A stretch of DNA of 54,586 nucleotides, taken from positions 1-54,586 of the forward strand of contig PLON01000018.1 of the NCBI GenBank assembly GCA_003142095.1, written 5' to 3'. Each line of letters begins with the position of its first letter. Within the stretch, counting starts at the first letter, position 1. The stretch is from Acidimicrobiaceae bacterium (GTDB lineage Bacteria > Actinomycetota > Acidimicrobiia > Acidimicrobiales > RAAP-2). The position numbers were made by a program, and so were the translations under genes. Below, piece after piece: positions 31,594 through 39,909 of the stretch. Under the pieces are notes generated by a model, which ran no database searches, was not told the origin of the DNA, and saw only the letters and a program-made list of their open reading frames with translations.

Positions 31594-31640
31594 TCCGCCT
31601 GAGTTTCGATCCCCTTCGCATTGGCGACACGGGGCCCCGT

Positions 31641-32543
31641 GTGCGCGACCTTAAGGAACGCCTCTCGGCGATCTCTTTTGAACCGACGACTGATAACGAC
31701 GTCTTCGACGACGAAACGGTGGCCTTCGTCGAATCGTTCCAGCGCTCGCGCGGACTCCCCCTCACCGGGGTTGTCGACCGCATCACCTACGAACGCTTGG
31801 GCGAGGCGAGTTGGCAGCTGGGTCAGCGGCTGCTCTACGTAACTCGTCCGATGCTCCGCGGTGACGACGTCGCCGAGCTTCAAGTACTGCTTGCGCAGCT
31901 GGGCTTTAATCCCGGGCGCATTGACGGGATCATGGGGGCCCACACCGCCGTGGCGCTCGGCGAGTTTCAGCGCAATTGCGCGCTGGAGGAGAGCGCCGCA
32001 CTCACGAAGGAAACGTTGATGACGCTTCGGCGCGTTCGAGCGACGAACGCCGTCAAAAGCCTCGTTACCGACGCGCGCGACCTCGCCGGCATCGACCCCT
32101 TAACGAGCGGTTCGGTGCTGATCTGCGGCCACGGCCCCCTCGTCGAGGGACTGGCGCAAACTCTCGGCGACAACGAGTCCATTCTCGTTTCGCTCGAATC
32201 TTCACAGGAAGAGGCCGCCCTCTACGCCAACACGCACGATGTCGCCCTGGTCCTGTCGTTTCAAACCCTCGAGCACGTCGACGGTATCCACCTGCACTAC
32301 TGGGCCAGTTACCGCAATCACTCGCACCGCGGCGAAGTCCTCGCGAGCACGCTGGCTTCGGTTTTCGCTCATCAACCTGAAGTTCCACGCGTCGAAGTAA
32401 CCGGCATGGCCCTACCGATTCTCCGCGAAACGAAGATGACCACGGTCCACGTCGAGCACGGGGACCTCTCTGAACAGGTATTTCACCAAGCCATCACCGC
32501 ATTTGAGGATATCGTGACGCAGGTTATCCACAGTTCGGAATAA
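31641..32543 (+). CDS. cwlM: CwlM-like protein: two peptidoglycan-binding domains and a degenerate amidase_3 domain
   Basis: 300 residues from the GTG at 31641. Two PG_binding_1 repeats occupy about 1-55 and 65-130 (LRGDDVAELQVLLAQLG, GIMGAHTAVALGEFQ). The first is cut short by this start: in-frame sequence upstream encodes FDPLRIGDTGPRV, the typical domain opening, so translation may begin at a CTG at 31599. The C-terminal part follows the amidase_3 fold but lacks its zinc site: DPGHGG reads ICGHGP, the Glu ligand segment is missing, and the Ser-Leu-His strand reads LSFQT. The final Glu (VHVEHG) is kept. Mycobacterial CwlM is an essential activator of MurA rather than a hydrolase. A regulatory role fits here. 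Confidence 0.75.
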   Translation: MRDLKERLSAISFEPTTDNDVFDDETVAFVESFQRSRGLPLTGVVDRITYERLGEASWQLGQRLLYVTRPMLRGDDVAELQVLLAQLGFNPGRIDGIMGAHTAVALGEFQRNCALEESAALTKETLMTLRRVRATNAVKSLVTDARDLAGIDPLTSGSVLICGHGPLVEGLAQTLGDNESILVSLESSQEEAALYANTHDVALVLSFQTLEHVDGIHLHYWASYRNHSHRGEVLASTLASVFAHQPEVPRVEVTGMALPILRETKMTTVHVEHGDLSEQVFHQAITAFEDIVTQVIHSSE

Positions 32544-32639
32544 AAAAGGCCATCCAAAACCGGGTATTTGTCAGGCAAAAGCCCATAAATTAGGCCGGAA
32601 TCCGAGTAACCCACAACTTCATCCACAACTTGGGGATAA
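32524..32639. promoter_or_regulatory. DnaA-box cluster between cwlM-like gene and parB
   Basis: A perfect TTATCCACA at 32524-32532 overlaps the end of the CwlM-like gene. TCATCCACA (one mismatch) is at 32619-32627, TAACCCACA (two mismatches) at 32607-32615, and the reverse-strand TTATCCCCA (one mismatch) at 32631-32639. The surrounding 130 bases are AT-rich and lie between two convergent gene ends, so no promoter is expected here. About 5.7-7.3 kb from the dnaA promoter boxes and the dnaA-dnaN origin. Confidence 0.6.
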
Positions 32640-32672
32640 CTTCAACAAGAGGGTTAGGTTTAATGTTGAAGG

Positions 32673-33599
32673 TCACTTAGGCTTTGCAATCGCGCTGTAG
32701 AGCCGCTCGAGGTCGTCGAGGTCCGCAAAGTCAATGATTATACGGCCATTGCGTCCTTTGAGGTCGACGTGAACGCGGGTATCCAGATAGCTTTCCAGCA
32801 ACTCTTCAAGCTCCGCCACGCTGGCATCGGGAACGGGCCGTAGTCTCGGCGCGCCCTCGGGCGACCTCGTGACGGTCTCCGCCGTCGGCAACGGGCGAGG
32901 CTCGAGAAAGGTTTTGACGGCCTCCTCGGTCGCGCGCACCGACAACTCATTCTTGATCACCTTCGCCACCAGGGTTGCTTGCGCGTTCGGGTCGCTCACG
33001 CCGAGCAGCGCTCGTGCGTGGCCGGCCGTAATTTGTGAAGAGGCCAGCGCACTTTGCGCTGTTTCGCCCAGTTGCAAAAGTCGTAACGTATTCGTAACAT
33101 ACGCTCTACTCTTCCCGACTCGCCGGGCCACTTGATCGTGCGTGAGGTCGAAGTCGTCGACGAGCTGCTGATACGCGGCCGCTTCTTCTAGGGCGTGCAG
33201 GTCGACGCGGTGGAGATTCTCAACCACTGCCTGCTCAAGCGAGAGTCGGTCGTTGACGTCATCTTGAAGCAAAACCGGCACGAGGTCGAGCTTTGCGATC
33301 ACCGCCGCTCGCCAACGCCGCTCGCCCGCAATCAGTTCGTACTTGTCCGGTTCACCTTCAACCGGTCGAACAATAATTGGTTGAAGGACGCCCAGTTCGG
33401 CGACGGACGCGGCGAGGGTCTTCAAACTTTCGTCGTTGAAGGTTTTGCGAGGTTGAAACTGGTTGGGCCGGATTGAATCGACGGGCACCATTCGAAGTGG
33501 GCTCGACGACGGGGTCTCAACCATGGTCTCCGTCGGAGTTGATGTTCCTTCTGGGATGAGGGCTCCGAGCCCCTTCCCTAAACCTGGTCTTCTAGGCAT
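32673..33599 (-). CDS. parB: Chromosome-partitioning protein ParB
   Basis: 308 residues. CTP-binding N-domain with RPNQFQPRKTF and GERRWRAA, the ENLHRVDLHALEEA segment, an HTH (HDQVARRVGKSRAYVTNTLR) for parS binding and a short C-terminal dimerisation domain. It loads at the five parS sites 0.9 kb upstream and spreads to form the segregation complex. Its ATG overlaps the parA stop by 8 bases. Confidence 0.96.
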   Translation of the reverse strand: MPRRPGLGKGLGALIPEGTSTPTETMVETPSSSPLRMVPVDSIRPNQFQPRKTFNDESLKTLAASVAELGVLQPIIVRPVEGEPDKYELIAGERRWRAAVIAKLDLVPVLLQDDVNDRLSLEQAVVENLHRVDLHALEEAAAYQQLVDDFDLTHDQVARRVGKSRAYVTNTLRLLQLGETAQSALASSQITAGHARALLGVSDPNAQATLVAKVIKNELSVRATEEAVKTFLEPRPLPTAETVTRSPEGAPRLRPVPDASVAELEELLESYLDTRVHVDLKGRNGRIIIDFADLDDLERLYSAIAKPK

Positions 33600-34365
33600 T
33601 CATGATCTCCTCTGCTAATGCTCGGTACGCCAAGGCACCTTTGGATGTGGGATCGAAGACGGTGATCGGTTGGCCGAAGGATGGCGCTTCCGCCAGACGA
33701 ACGGTTCTCGGGATCATCGTCTCGCATAGTTCTTCTTCGAAATGTTTCTTCACTTCTTTCGCAACGTCGGACGACAGCGTGTTGCGTGAGTCGTACATGG
33801 TCAACACGACCTTGGTGATTCGAAGATCGGGATTGAGGTTCTTCTGGACCAGGTCGACGATCCGCTGGAGCTGGGTGAGGCCTTCAAGAGCGTAAAACTC
33901 AGCCTGAACTGGAACCAGAATCTCCGTAGCGGCGGCGAAGGCGTTAATGGTTATCAGACCGAGGGACGGGGGACAGTCAATGAAAATGAAGTCGAAGTCA
34001 CCCTCCACCGAAGCAATCGCTCGCTTGAGGCGCAACTCTCGAGAAATGACCGATGTCAGTTCCTGCTCCACGCCCGCCAGGTCCAGGGTTGCCGGGGCCA
34101 CAAATAGGTTGTTAAAGCCGGTGGGCTCCACAATGTCCACCATGGGTACGTCATTCAAGAGCACGTCATAGACCGACCGCTCGAATTGGCGACCATCGAT
34201 ACCCAAGCCCGTGGTTGCGTTTCCTTGCGGGTCGAGATCTACAACTAAGACCCTCTTTCCTTGCTCCGCCAGCGCTGCTCCCAAAGAAATGGTGGTTGTG
34301 GTCTTGCCGACACCACCCTTTTGATTGGCTACAGCAAAAATCCTCATTGTGCTGGCATCCGCCAT
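33592..34365 (-). CDS. parA: Chromosome-partitioning ATPase ParA
   Basis: 257 residues. Deviant Walker A NQKGGVGKTTT, switch motifs VDLDPQGNATTGLG and FIFIDCPPSLG. It binds DNA non-specifically and moves ParB-parS complexes. A second in-frame ATG at 34347 (MRIFAVANQ) is a plausible alternative start. The upstream 500 bases hold the parS cluster. Confidence 0.96.
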   Translation of the reverse strand: MADASTMRIFAVANQKGGVGKTTTTISLGAALAEQGKRVLVVDLDPQGNATTGLGIDGRQFERSVYDVLLNDVPMVDIVEPTGFNNLFVAPATLDLAGVEQELTSVISRELRLKRAIASVEGDFDFIFIDCPPSLGLITINAFAAATEILVPVQAEFYALEGLTQLQRIVDLVQKNLNPDLRITKVVLTMYDSRNTLSSDVAKEVKKHFEEELCETMIPRTVRLAEAPSFGQPITVFDPTSKGALAYRALAEEIMNA

Positions 34366-34459: not shown

Positions 34460-34475
34460 TGTTTCACGTGAAACA
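34460..34475. promoter_or_regulatory. parS site 1
   Basis: TGTTTCACGTGAAACA, a perfect match to the bacterial parS palindrome, 95 bases upstream of parA, the position of a ParB-repressed promoter. The 34366-34872 gap between parA and rsmG holds five such sites and no gene that I can support. A half site (TGTTTCACAC) lies at 34499-34508. Confidence 0.95.
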
Positions 34476-34544
34476 TTCCCTTTAGATCCAACCTCAAATG
34501 TTTCACACGGCCTGGGAAAACACTAAATAACCTTCAATTACGAG

Positions 34545-34560
34545 TGTTTCACGTGAAACA
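34545..34560. promoter_or_regulatory. parS site 2
   Basis: TGTTTCACGTGAAACA, perfect 16-bp palindrome, 69 bases after site 1. Confidence 0.95.
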
Positions 34561-34590
34561 TTCTCCTCGCGCAGTTGATTAGATAGAAGA

Positions 34591-34606
34591 TGTTTCACGT
34601 GAAACA
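34591..34606. promoter_or_regulatory. parS site 3
   Basis: TGTTTCACGTGAAACA, perfect, 30 bases after site 2; this is the tightest spacing in the cluster. Confidence 0.95.
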
Positions 34607-34763
34607 TTCCTCGGGGAGACACCGCCGGGCCTGGAGAATTCATCGGCGAGAGAACTCAGAGACGGCTTGAGACGAGAGGCGCGAAGTTCGGTATTGGGCC
34701 TGTCCGAGGCGACCACTAACTCACCTAGGGCTCGAAATCTTCCAGCTACGAGCGCACCAGCGA

Positions 34764-34779
34764 TGTTTCGCGTGAAACA
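34764..34779. promoter_or_regulatory. parS site 4 (one mismatch)
   Basis: TGTTTCGCGTGAAACA, one substitution (A to G) in the central CACGTG. Such variants are commonly still bound by ParB. Confidence 0.85.
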
Positions 34780-34855
34780 TCCACTAGGGGAAGTATTTCT
34801 AACCGTACAAGGACAAGCCCTAGTAGATCCTCCGTCTAGTGACGGACGGGATCAA

Positions 34856-34871
34856 TGTTTCACGTGAAACA
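34856..34871. promoter_or_regulatory. parS site 5
   Basis: TGTTTCACGTGAAACA, perfect, ending one base before the rsmG stop codon on the minus strand. Confidence 0.95.
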
Positions 34872-37372: not shown

Positions 37373-37665
37373 GAGTGGGAGCTCCTGGTCTGAGGTTCTG
37401 GGACGAGATCAATGCCGTGGGGTCCGAAGGGGCGACAGCGCAACACTCGGCGGGCGGCGAGGGCGCCTCCGCGAAGGGCGCCGTGGACGTAAATCGCCTC
37501 TACTGCGTAGTTCGAGCAGGAGGGATAGAAGCGACAGGGGGCGACGCGCCCCGCTCTAAGGCGCTGATAGAGACGAATCGCCCCGAGCAACACTCGAGCG
37601 ACGCCGGAATTAGAGGGCGTTGGCTCGCTCAAGGGCTTTTGTAAGGTGGGAGTGGAGTTGTGCAT
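37360..37665 (-). CDS. yidD: Membrane protein insertion efficiency factor YidD
   Basis: The YidD core is clear: RVLLGAIRLYQRLRAG, CRFYPSCSNYAVEAI, GALRGGALAARRVLRCRPF and GIDLVP. The start is uncertain. The ATG at 37665 gives 101 residues but overlaps rnpA by 56 bases, while a GTG at 37593 gives a 77-residue protein of normal YidD length without the overlap. Small amphipathic membrane-associated partner of YidC, always between rnpA and yidC. Confidence 0.88.
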   Translation of the reverse strand: MHNSTPTLQKPLSEPTPSNSGVARVLLGAIRLYQRLRAGRVAPCRFYPSCSNYAVEAIYVHGALRGGALAARRVLRCRPFGPHGIDLVPEPQTRSSHSCAP

Positions 37666-37939
37666 AAGAGAAGTTCCCCGTCTCATTACCGCACCTGATC
37701 AGGTATAAACCAGGTTGAGGCTGAGGGTTCAGGTCGTCTAGAAGTGCCCGGAGTCGACGACGGGTTCGATTACGAACCACGGCATTGCCGACCTTTCGAC
37801 TGATCGCGTACGCCACGTCAACGCCTGAACTTTCGGATGAGCCGGCCACGAAACTGATTCGTAGGGGGCCACTCTGACCGCGTCCAGTCGGTGTCGCAAA
37901 GAGCGCGAACTGCCGGCGGGTTCGGACCCGACCGGGCAC
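37610..37939 (-). CDS. rnpA: Ribonuclease P protein component
   Basis: GTG start at 37939, 5 bases after rpmH; 109 residues. The RNR signature RKVGNAVVRNRTRRRLRALL is present. It pairs with the RNase P RNA, which is not in this window, to mature tRNA 5' ends. The 3' end may overlap the yidD start. Confidence 0.94.
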   Translation of the reverse strand: MPGRVRTRRQFALFATPTGRGQSGPLRISFVAGSSESSGVDVAYAISRKVGNAVVRNRTRRRLRALLDDLNPQPQPGLYLIRCGNETGNFSYAQLHSHLTKALERANAL

Positions 37940-38233: not shown

Positions 38234-38261
38234 TTATCGACAGCAACGGGGTTGTGGATAA
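38234..38261. promoter_or_regulatory. DnaA boxes in the dnaA upstream region
   Basis: TTATCGACA at 38234-38242 (one mismatch) and TGTGGATAA at 38253-38261 (perfect box on the minus strand), 29-48 bases before the dnaA GTG. The position suggests DnaA autoregulation of its promoter or leader. Confidence 0.7.
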
Positions 38262-38289
38262 TGTCAGACGTGGCCTGTGGAGGAACATT

Positions 38290-39651: not shown

Positions 39652-39909
39652 GAAACGATATTGTGCGCAACCTAGGGGCCACGCTGTTGATTACACGTTG
39701 ACAACGAGCCACTACTCCACATCATCTCCGGGTTGAACCCTGAGGGTTGAGGGAGTTACGAACAGTGTTGTGGGTTGGACGTGTACAAAGAAAGAAACCC
39801 CGATCAGGGTTCTTTTGACCTCCATCACATATCCACAGCCCTACTACTACTAAGACTTCTTTACATTGAAATCCACACCGTAACCTCAGTAGCAAGGAAA
39901 GGTAGTTCT
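39652..39909. other. Candidate replication origin (dnaA-dnaN intergenic)
   Basis: 258 bases with no gene. Contains ATATCCACA at 39829-39837 (one mismatch to the DnaA box), AAATCCACA at 39869-39877 and TACTCCACA at 39713-39721 (two mismatches each), an AT-rich stretch at about 39856-39872 and the dnaN ribosome binding site AAGGAAAGG. Weak boxes and one trio-like tract fit a compact oriC. A short inverted repeat (AACCC ... GGGTT) at 39735-39747 may also matter. Confidence 0.65.
39829..39855 (+). promoter_or_regulatory. DnaA box plus DnaA-trio-like unwinding element
   Basis: ATATCCACA (39829-39837), a GC-rich GCC spacer, then CTACTACTACTA (39841-39852) and AT-rich sequence. On the lower strand the tract is a run of 3'-GAT-5' triplets, the pattern of the DnaA-trio that guides DnaA onto single strands during opening. 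Confidence 0.6.

Follow-up and report, generated by a model that had tools for sequence, protein, structure and literature searches.

The window, as we call the whole stretch of DNA that was analysed (54,586 bp, from an Acidimicrobiaceae bacterium), carries beside parB a cluster of DnaA boxes. Its fixed geometry, shared by nearly every sampled genome of the order and by no sampled neighbour, points to an additional control switch for the onset of DNA replication. We regard the element as an oriC-proximal, predicted DnaA-binding control site of the kind represented by datA and the DnaA-box clusters (DBCs), and we assign this reading a probability of about 0.5. Binding of DnaA is expected from the consensus boxes and from the likeness of the element to sites upstream of dnaA, and the direction of the effect and the mechanism proposed below are those that we infer.

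To the left of the element lie trxB, trxA and a gene for a protein with two peptidoglycan-binding stretches (Pfam, NCBIfam); to the right follow, in order, parB, parA, five parS-like sites, rsmG, jag, yidC, the rnpA/rpmH region, dnaA and dnaN. The name cwlM for the gene at 31641–32543 is our assumption from actinobacterial synteny, and the positions of rnpA and rpmH were assigned from the sequence together with the synteny that we presume. A parS-like site was defined by at least 13 of 14 matches to the parS consensus; such sites numbered from 0 to 7 per locus across 31 loci with both dnaA and dnaN. The features used in the following are listed by their position in the window.

31641–32543, plus strand: cwlM-like gene with two PG_binding_1 stretches (Pfam), convergent with parB.
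32524–32532, plus strand: box 0, TTATCCACA, a perfect match within the 3' end of the cwlM-like gene.
32533–32606: spacer (end of the cwlM-like gene and intergenic DNA), fixed in length and free in sequence.
32607–32615, plus strand: box A, TAACCCACA, with two mismatches, which opens the order-wide triple.
32619–32627, plus strand: box B, TCATCCACA, with one mismatch, 12 bp past A.
32631–32639, minus strand: box C, TTATCCCCA, with one mismatch, inverted, 12 bp past B.
32640–32672: conserved flank, CTTCAAC...GGGTTA...GTTGAAGG, which reaches the parB stop.
32673–33599, minus strand: parB (Pfam and NCBIfam ParB models).
33592–34365, minus strand: parA (Pfam AAA_31/ParA).
34460–34871: five parS-like sites, at 34460, 34545, 34591, 34764 (one mismatch) and 34856, between parA and rsmG.
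38253–38261 and 38276–38284, minus strand: two DnaA boxes directly before dnaA, identified from the sequence.
39829–39852, plus strand: presumed oriC unwinding core in the dnaA–dnaN gap, with the DnaA box ATATCCACA, a GC-rich gap and the DnaA-trios CTACTACTACTA.

Boxes A, B and C, with A(+) followed after 12 bp by B(+) and after a further 12 bp by C(−), make up a compact core of 33 bp (32607–32639). The initial annotation had described four boxes (one perfect, two with one mismatch and one weaker) in about 115 AT-rich bases between convergent genes. All four were found at that place, and the stretch 32524–32639 has a GC content of 44.0%, compared with 61.0% across the window. The position between convergent genes holds for A, B and C but not for box 0, which lies inside the last codons of the cwlM-like ORF; the intergenic part, between the convergent stops, covers only 32544–32672 (129 bp). 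The window contains eight boxes with at most one mismatch, whereas its dinucleotide shuffles contained 3.5 on average. Three of these boxes fall within the 116-bp span, which was matched by none of 200 dinucleotide shuffles of the window; the biggest cluster among these shuffles had two boxes and was reached in three of them. The clustering of DnaA boxes beside parB is non-random. The sequence of box 0, TTATCCACA, occurs six times in the 2.64-Mb assembly. Elsewhere in the window, the box TTATGCACA lies in the rnpA region (37659–37667, minus strand) as one of three matches to TTWTNCACA.

The distribution of the triple was analysed with a score for A(+), B(+) and C(−) at intervals of 12 bp and then 11 or 12 bp, applied to both strands up to 420 bp 3' of parB, with a cut-off of 23. 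The score was framed after the order sequences had been viewed, and outgroups and shuffles were scored identically as controls. The order set consisted of 32 genomes of other genera, 24 of them one per family plus eight more. These eight came from 13 same-order or same-family genomes, of which G042 already belonged to the set and G067, G086, G090 and G110 were left out. The other orders of the class were represented by 31 of 45 genomes, which left out 10 of the 12 in family f32 as well as G079, G080, G103 and G109, and which included two (L142 and L143) that share one best stretch; the other classes were represented by 40 of the 72 genomes with a ParB match. The sampled genomes are mostly incomplete.

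A score of at least 23 was obtained 3' of parB in 31 of the 32 order genomes, with the triple within about 250 bp of the parB stop. No match was found at this position among the 31 genomes of other orders or the 40 genomes of other classes (best score 14 in each), and none of 6400 shuffles reached 23 (best 22). From this sampling, the parB-side triple appears to be a feature of the order Acidimicrobiales. Conservation in close relatives had been proposed earlier as a check on the boxes, and it was borne out: the cluster is kept in 32 of 32 genus sequences, and the triple occupies the same place in the 31 of 32 genomes from other genera. The spacing was 12/12 in 25 of the 31 order triples and 12/11 in six, where only 11 and 12 were permitted for the second interval. 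When the spacing was left free (9–14) on one strand, 12/12 or 12/11 was obtained in 26 of 32 order loci, and pair counts of CACA-ending boxes, made without the triple model, peaked at 12 and 24 bp.

The triple is inverted in place in four of the 31 order genomes, so a DNA–protein complex fits better than a promoter or a terminator. Nine order loci have trxA but no cwlM-like match beside parB, and eight of them keep the triple. In G051, the element stays at parB though dnaA is about 20 kb away. The sole exception among the 32 is G040 (locus L081), which has a low score at dnaA too and whose dnaA–dnaN gap keeps DnaA boxes and trios; the parB-side triple is dispensable at least in this genome.

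Constraint within the genus was evaluated on an alignment of 32 distinct sequences, from which four duplicates and the window itself (L002) had been excluded; three genus genomes had no ParB match. The 33-bp core showed a mean pairwise identity of 0.932 with 25 invariant columns, and the identities of the single boxes were 0.934 (A), 0.980 (B) and 0.943 (C). The spacer at 32544–32606 had a mean pairwise identity of 0.34 with none of 63 columns invariant, and the identity at 41 four-fold sites of parB was 0.353, far below that of the core. Within parB coding DNA the best 33-bp window reached 0.809, and none of the 906 windows equalled the core. The flank at 32640–32672 showed an identity of 0.761 with nine of 33 columns invariant. 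The more distant genus members L068–L071 were read separately, and their cores are diverged yet recognisable.

Box 0 starts 82–84 bp ahead of box A in all 32 genus sequences (83 bp in 13, 84 bp in 10 and 82 bp in nine). In L068–L071, the position 84 bp ahead of A holds a good box in two members and a degenerate one in the other two (L068 and L070). The codon that follows CAC in box 0 encodes Arg in 18 sequences, always as AGR, compared with 9 of 122 Arg codons in the background; it encodes Ser in 10, always as AGY, compared with 29 of 109; and it encodes Asn or Thr in the remaining four of the 32. These backgrounds come from the five window genes only, and the 32 genus sequences are mutually related. 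Given this codon bias after CAC, box 0 seems to be maintained by selection on the nucleotide sequence. The idea that coding constraint alone explains it was considered and is disfavoured by the AGR/AGY bias together with the fixed spacing.

The flank of the core is rich in GGTTGA. In 11 genus loci this motif occurred at 9.1 per kb in the element flank, 4.1 per kb in the dnaA–dnaN gap and 0.8 per kb in coding DNA; in other families the density was 3.0 near the element versus 0.9, and the dnaA–dnaN gap, at 0.8, showed no excess. A second protein may bind the GGTTGA-rich flank at 32640–32672. The GGTTGA-type repeats in the genus dnaA–dnaN gap (39652–39900 in the window) resemble those beside the parB element, and repeats common to both places suggest a shared second protein that would bind oriC as well. 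Across the order, the 6-mers found within 100 bp of the triples included CTCAAC/GTTGAG in 12 of 32 loci (expected 2.5) and CCTCGA in 15 (expected 3.9); this enrichment is only suggestive, since the best 6-mer per shuffle averaged 11.6 loci and reached up to 15.

A triple like the parB-side one, with the same order and orientation of boxes and a spacing of 12 and then 11 or 12 bp, occurs upstream of dnaA in Actinomycetota, where it is presumably a site of autoregulation; binding of DnaA to its own promoter is described for Streptomyces lividans and slow-growing mycobacteria in an excerpt of PMC8203912. The parB copy differs in that it lies between convergent genes, with no promoter seen, and not just upstream of dnaA. 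The spacing from B to C also differs, being mostly 12 at parB (25/31) and mostly 11 upstream of dnaA (11/15).

Both copies were traced with the exact pattern CCACA-N8-CACA-N2/3-TGKGGA, and the same pattern written backwards served as the control. In 61 relatives the pattern gave 58 hits, with at least one in 50 genomes, and the control gave two. Of these 58 hits, 42 lie at most 300 bp 3' of parB (31 from the genus and 11 from other families), 15 lie just before dnaA and one lies elsewhere. Among 60 genomes of the class, 41 had a hit (28/45 of the other orders) and the control had none; among 80 genomes of the phylum, 36 had a hit (30/74 of the other classes) and the control had three. We checked 46 exact-hit loci. 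In 31 of them the estimated dnaA start is no more than about 170 bp away; these comprise 10 loci of the order, 16 of the 19 checked from other orders in the class and 5 of the 14 from other classes. The remaining loci comprise four situated some 1 kb upstream of a DnaA match that is weak and N-terminal (L228–L230 and L236), three at the parB side and eight that matched neither gene (L205, L212, L215, L224, L226, L227, L231 and L232). For the class, the evidence for the dnaA-upstream module is good; for the phylum, it is only partial. In all 35 checked loci where dnaA was matched, triple and gene lie on opposite strands; same-strand exceptions came from other scans, namely two of 15 dnaA-upstream triples (L073 and L084) and G046.

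Three further arrangements were observed in these scans. At G058:C22:6626-6651 there is an exact triple at neither parB nor dnaA, and a third DnaA site may exist there. The distant family f55 (G127, G166 and G188) has a conserved overlapping double triple, CCACAGGTGTGACCACAGGTGTGGA, with a separate exact hit 17–19 kb away on that contig. In family f57 (G143 and G157), two overlapping triples lie on opposite strands, 11 bp apart.

The dnaA-upstream triple fell short of a score of 23 in all 13 genus loci and reached it in 15 of 20 other-family loci, a count from which four of 24 other-family loci had dropped out since their stretch lacked dnaA, and in which an 11/11 triple before dnaA in L075 and L092 went uncounted. 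The boxes at 38253–38261 and 38276–38284 are the genus remnant of what other families hold as a triple, and by these scores the parB copy in the genus of the window is the intact one and the dnaA copy has decayed. Just before dnaA, at 38234–38261, a one-mismatch box TTATCGACA (+) faces a perfect box (−); the one-mismatch box is absent from the five aligned relatives.

The unwinding signature was located in the dnaA–dnaN gap. A box followed by trios is the layout of the basal unwinding system, as described in a passage of PMC8287927, and in the genus the trios CTACTACTACTA are present in this gap in six of six members, with a TCCACA box just ahead in five. A repeat of the TACTACTA type was detected in 18 of 31 dnaA–dnaN gaps (12 of 13 in the genus, 6 of 18 in other families) and was not matched by the simple pattern used in the other 13. 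The parB-side element lies about 7.2 kb from the presumed core at 39829–39852, which corrects the distance of 6–7 kb from oriC given by the initial annotation; in examined loci that carry the triple, 5.0–7.7 kb separate it from the dnaA-upstream stretch. GC skew in 1-kb windows was noisy, with a cumulative minimum at about 45–46 kb, and is too coarse to separate 32.6 kb from 39.8 kb.

A DnaA control site outside oriC would work as follows. Boxes A and B, in tandem and 12 bp apart, and the inverted box C, 11 or 12 bp further on, would seat a small DnaA oligomer, and in the genus of the window the fourth box, about nine helical turns before B, and the GGTTGA-rich flank would add to this oligomer site. 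The parB-side module probably arose as a second copy of the dnaA-upstream site, because the two match in the order and the dnaA-upstream one recurs in other orders and some other classes. As the element is only about 7 kb from oriC, it would be copied right after initiation, which would double the number of sites. It would then draw off or inactivate DnaA and restrain re-initiation, in the manner of datA and the DnaA-box clusters of Bacillus subtilis and Streptomyces coelicolor. What argues for this reading is a cluster beyond chance, the constraint on the core, the restriction of the triple to the order, its inversion in place and the codon bias at box 0. Support from the literature comes from datA and the B. 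subtilis clusters, which lose function once moved from near oriC to terC; the B. subtilis clusters are shown only to titrate (PMC5010248). In an excerpt of PMC5742627, untimely initiation is said to be repressed by the clusters of B. subtilis and of S. coelicolor, the latter cited as analogous. A second review questions how much the B. subtilis clusters contribute (passage of PMC5295017).

Several points speak against the control-site reading. A single locus with three boxes captures few molecules by titration, unless DnaA forms oligomers or loses its activity at the site. The constant linkage to parB, which G051 keeps despite its distant dnaA, is not predicted by titration alone. The DARS core shares box order and orientation and yet has the opposite effect, the site is dispensable at least in G040, and datA requires IHF.

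The opposite effect is the substance of the first alternative, which we consider unlikely: DnaA on the tandem pair and the facing box would oligomerise and release ADP, and the ATP-recharged DnaA would promote initiation, as at a DARS site. In E. coli K-12, the bioD–uvrB gap, which we take to be DARS1 from its location, contains TAATACACATGGTTATCCACAGGAATAGTGGATAA. Within the 12 kb surrounding mutH, TTCTTCACAACTCTATCCACAGAAAAGGTGAATAA fits the (12,14) arrangement best and was treated as DARS2. Each reads as a tandem pair spaced at 12 bp with an inverted box 14 bp further on. The parB-side triple, at 12 and then 12 (or 11), equals the DARS cores in order and orientation. In a passage of PMC5742627, box I faces boxes II and III with equal spacing at both DARS sites and the head-to-head contact is prominent; an excerpt of PMC4585315 states that DARS1 also depends on a flanking stretch, and the element has a conserved flank. 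However, the head-to-head gap is 2–3 bp shorter than that of DARS in all 31 order triples, and the rotation that this implies may matter. Nor does the geometry single out DARS, as E. coli datA also has 12-bp tandem and 12-bp facing pairs. Insertions of DARS1 very close to oriC raised origin concentration in E. coli, and most of the selected ones were far from oriC (PMC5010248).

The linkage to parB bears on the second alternative, a centromere-linked site at which DnaA beside parB and parS would help to start the segregation of the new origin, as at Caulobacter parS; this too seems improbable. The triple is tied to parB in 31 of 32 order genomes, including those without a cwlM-like match and G051, and the five parS-like sites are 1.8–2.2 kb from the element. 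In Caulobacter, parS is bound by DnaA, which still supports partitioning when its level is insufficient for replication (excerpt of PMC6399470). The boxes of the element, however, fall outside the parS cluster, and dnaA and parAB adjoin in most loci, which makes linkage to parB hard to separate from nearness to oriC. Moreover, the same module is found before dnaA in other orders that have none at parB.

A role in RNA or transcription, such as a terminator or roadblock between the convergent genes or a promoter-linked DnaA site, is very unlikely. The position between convergent stops would suit it, visual inspection shows that B and C can pair into a short stem in many families, and L081, which lacks the triple, has a GC-rich hairpin there (by eye). 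In the genus, however, the B–C stem is broken, with TTGGGGA facing TCCACAA, and RNA folding was no better than that of shuffles (z −0.64 and −1.30). The scan of 31600–33700 picked up neither a sigma-70-like promoter nor, between the genes, anything like a terminator, there was no Rfam match, and the module is inverted in 4 of 31 order loci. A promoter role is unlikely at the parB-side element because the genes are convergent, no sigma-70-like match was obtained and the element is inverted in some genomes.

The initial annotation had suggested a titration site, an activating site or half of a bipartite origin. The conservation of the boxes in the genus and the order supports a DnaA regulatory site next to parB, but the proposal of half an origin is not supported because the unwinding signature lies between dnaA and dnaN. 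In its wider form, a bipartite or alternative origin with DNA unwound at the element itself, it is very unlikely. The box cluster does sit in AT-richer DNA, GGTTGA repeats are common to the element and the dnaA–dnaN gap in the genus, and the other-family locus L074 carries ACTACTAC shortly past the triple. Inspection of the genus alignment by eye, however, revealed no unwinding signature at the element, and all 71 outgroup regions are without the triple. Bipartite origins extend up to about 2 kb and have a spacer gene, usually dnaA, according to an excerpt of PMC4285127; the element is 7.2 kb from the presumed oriC core and lies beyond parB, parA and the rsmG-to-rpmH genes, with the trios in the dnaA–dnaN gap. 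A plasmid origin was rejected, as 32490–32690 had no plasmid match.

The 33-bp element, with its fixed geometry, is near-universal in the sampled order and missing in the sampled sister orders, and it offers a ready test of which DnaA-box arrangement titrates, inactivates or recharges DnaA and of whether initiation is coupled to segregation through a DnaA site at parB. One DnaA-box triple serves as a reusable module: many genomes of the class, and some from other classes, carry it just upstream of dnaA. It is a tentative possibility that in Acidimicrobiales two copies of one DnaA-assembly module bracket the parB, parA and parS region, and that the parB copy belongs to a control-site class of its own, acting as a compact DnaA switch, either DARS-like or linked to the centromere, that would set initiation or couple it to segregation; in the genus, this copy would have replaced the one at the dnaA promoter and gained a helically phased fourth box in coding sequence. 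To our knowledge, the limiting of DnaA activity is poorly known in actinobacteria relative to E. coli. In the openly licensed literature, no paper was found that joins DnaA box, parB and Acidimicrobi, and 'downstream of parB' together with a DnaA box was found, in the excerpts retrieved, only in the review context of Caulobacter GapR.

Among known systems, the DnaA boxes at Caulobacter parS resemble the element in being at a partition locus near the origin (excerpt of PMC6399470). The Caulobacter boxes are at parS itself, whereas the element (32524–32639) is 3' of parB, 1.8–2.2 kb from the parS-like sites at 34460–34871. The DARS1 and DARS2 cores of E. coli are similar in having two tandem boxes 12 bp apart and one facing box. 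They differ in that the facing box is at 14 bp, compared with 11–12 in the element (12/12 in 25 and 12/11 in six of 31). DARS1 and DARS2 are far from oriC. The DARS2 core is conserved in gammaproteobacteria related to E. coli, as stated in a passage of PMC4245941.

The clusters of B. subtilis and S. coelicolor are, like the element, groups of DnaA boxes outside oriC, and loss of all six clusters in B. subtilis led to early initiation (excerpts of PMC5295017 and PMC5742627). The rigid order-wide geometry and the parB linkage of the element are not described for these clusters in the excerpts, and the two were compared by description only. What the element has in common with the datA/DBC kind is that the cluster lies outside oriC, beyond chance, and close to oriC, as datA of E. 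coli also does (PMC5010248). In the glyY–queG stretch, datA contains two pairs spaced at 12 bp, one tandem and one facing; it differs in that these pairs are about 160 bp apart and do not form a single compact triple as in the element. An IHF site lies between box 2 and box 3 of datA, according to a passage of PMC5742627, and in the element the fixed spacing from box 0 to the core would allow a bend.
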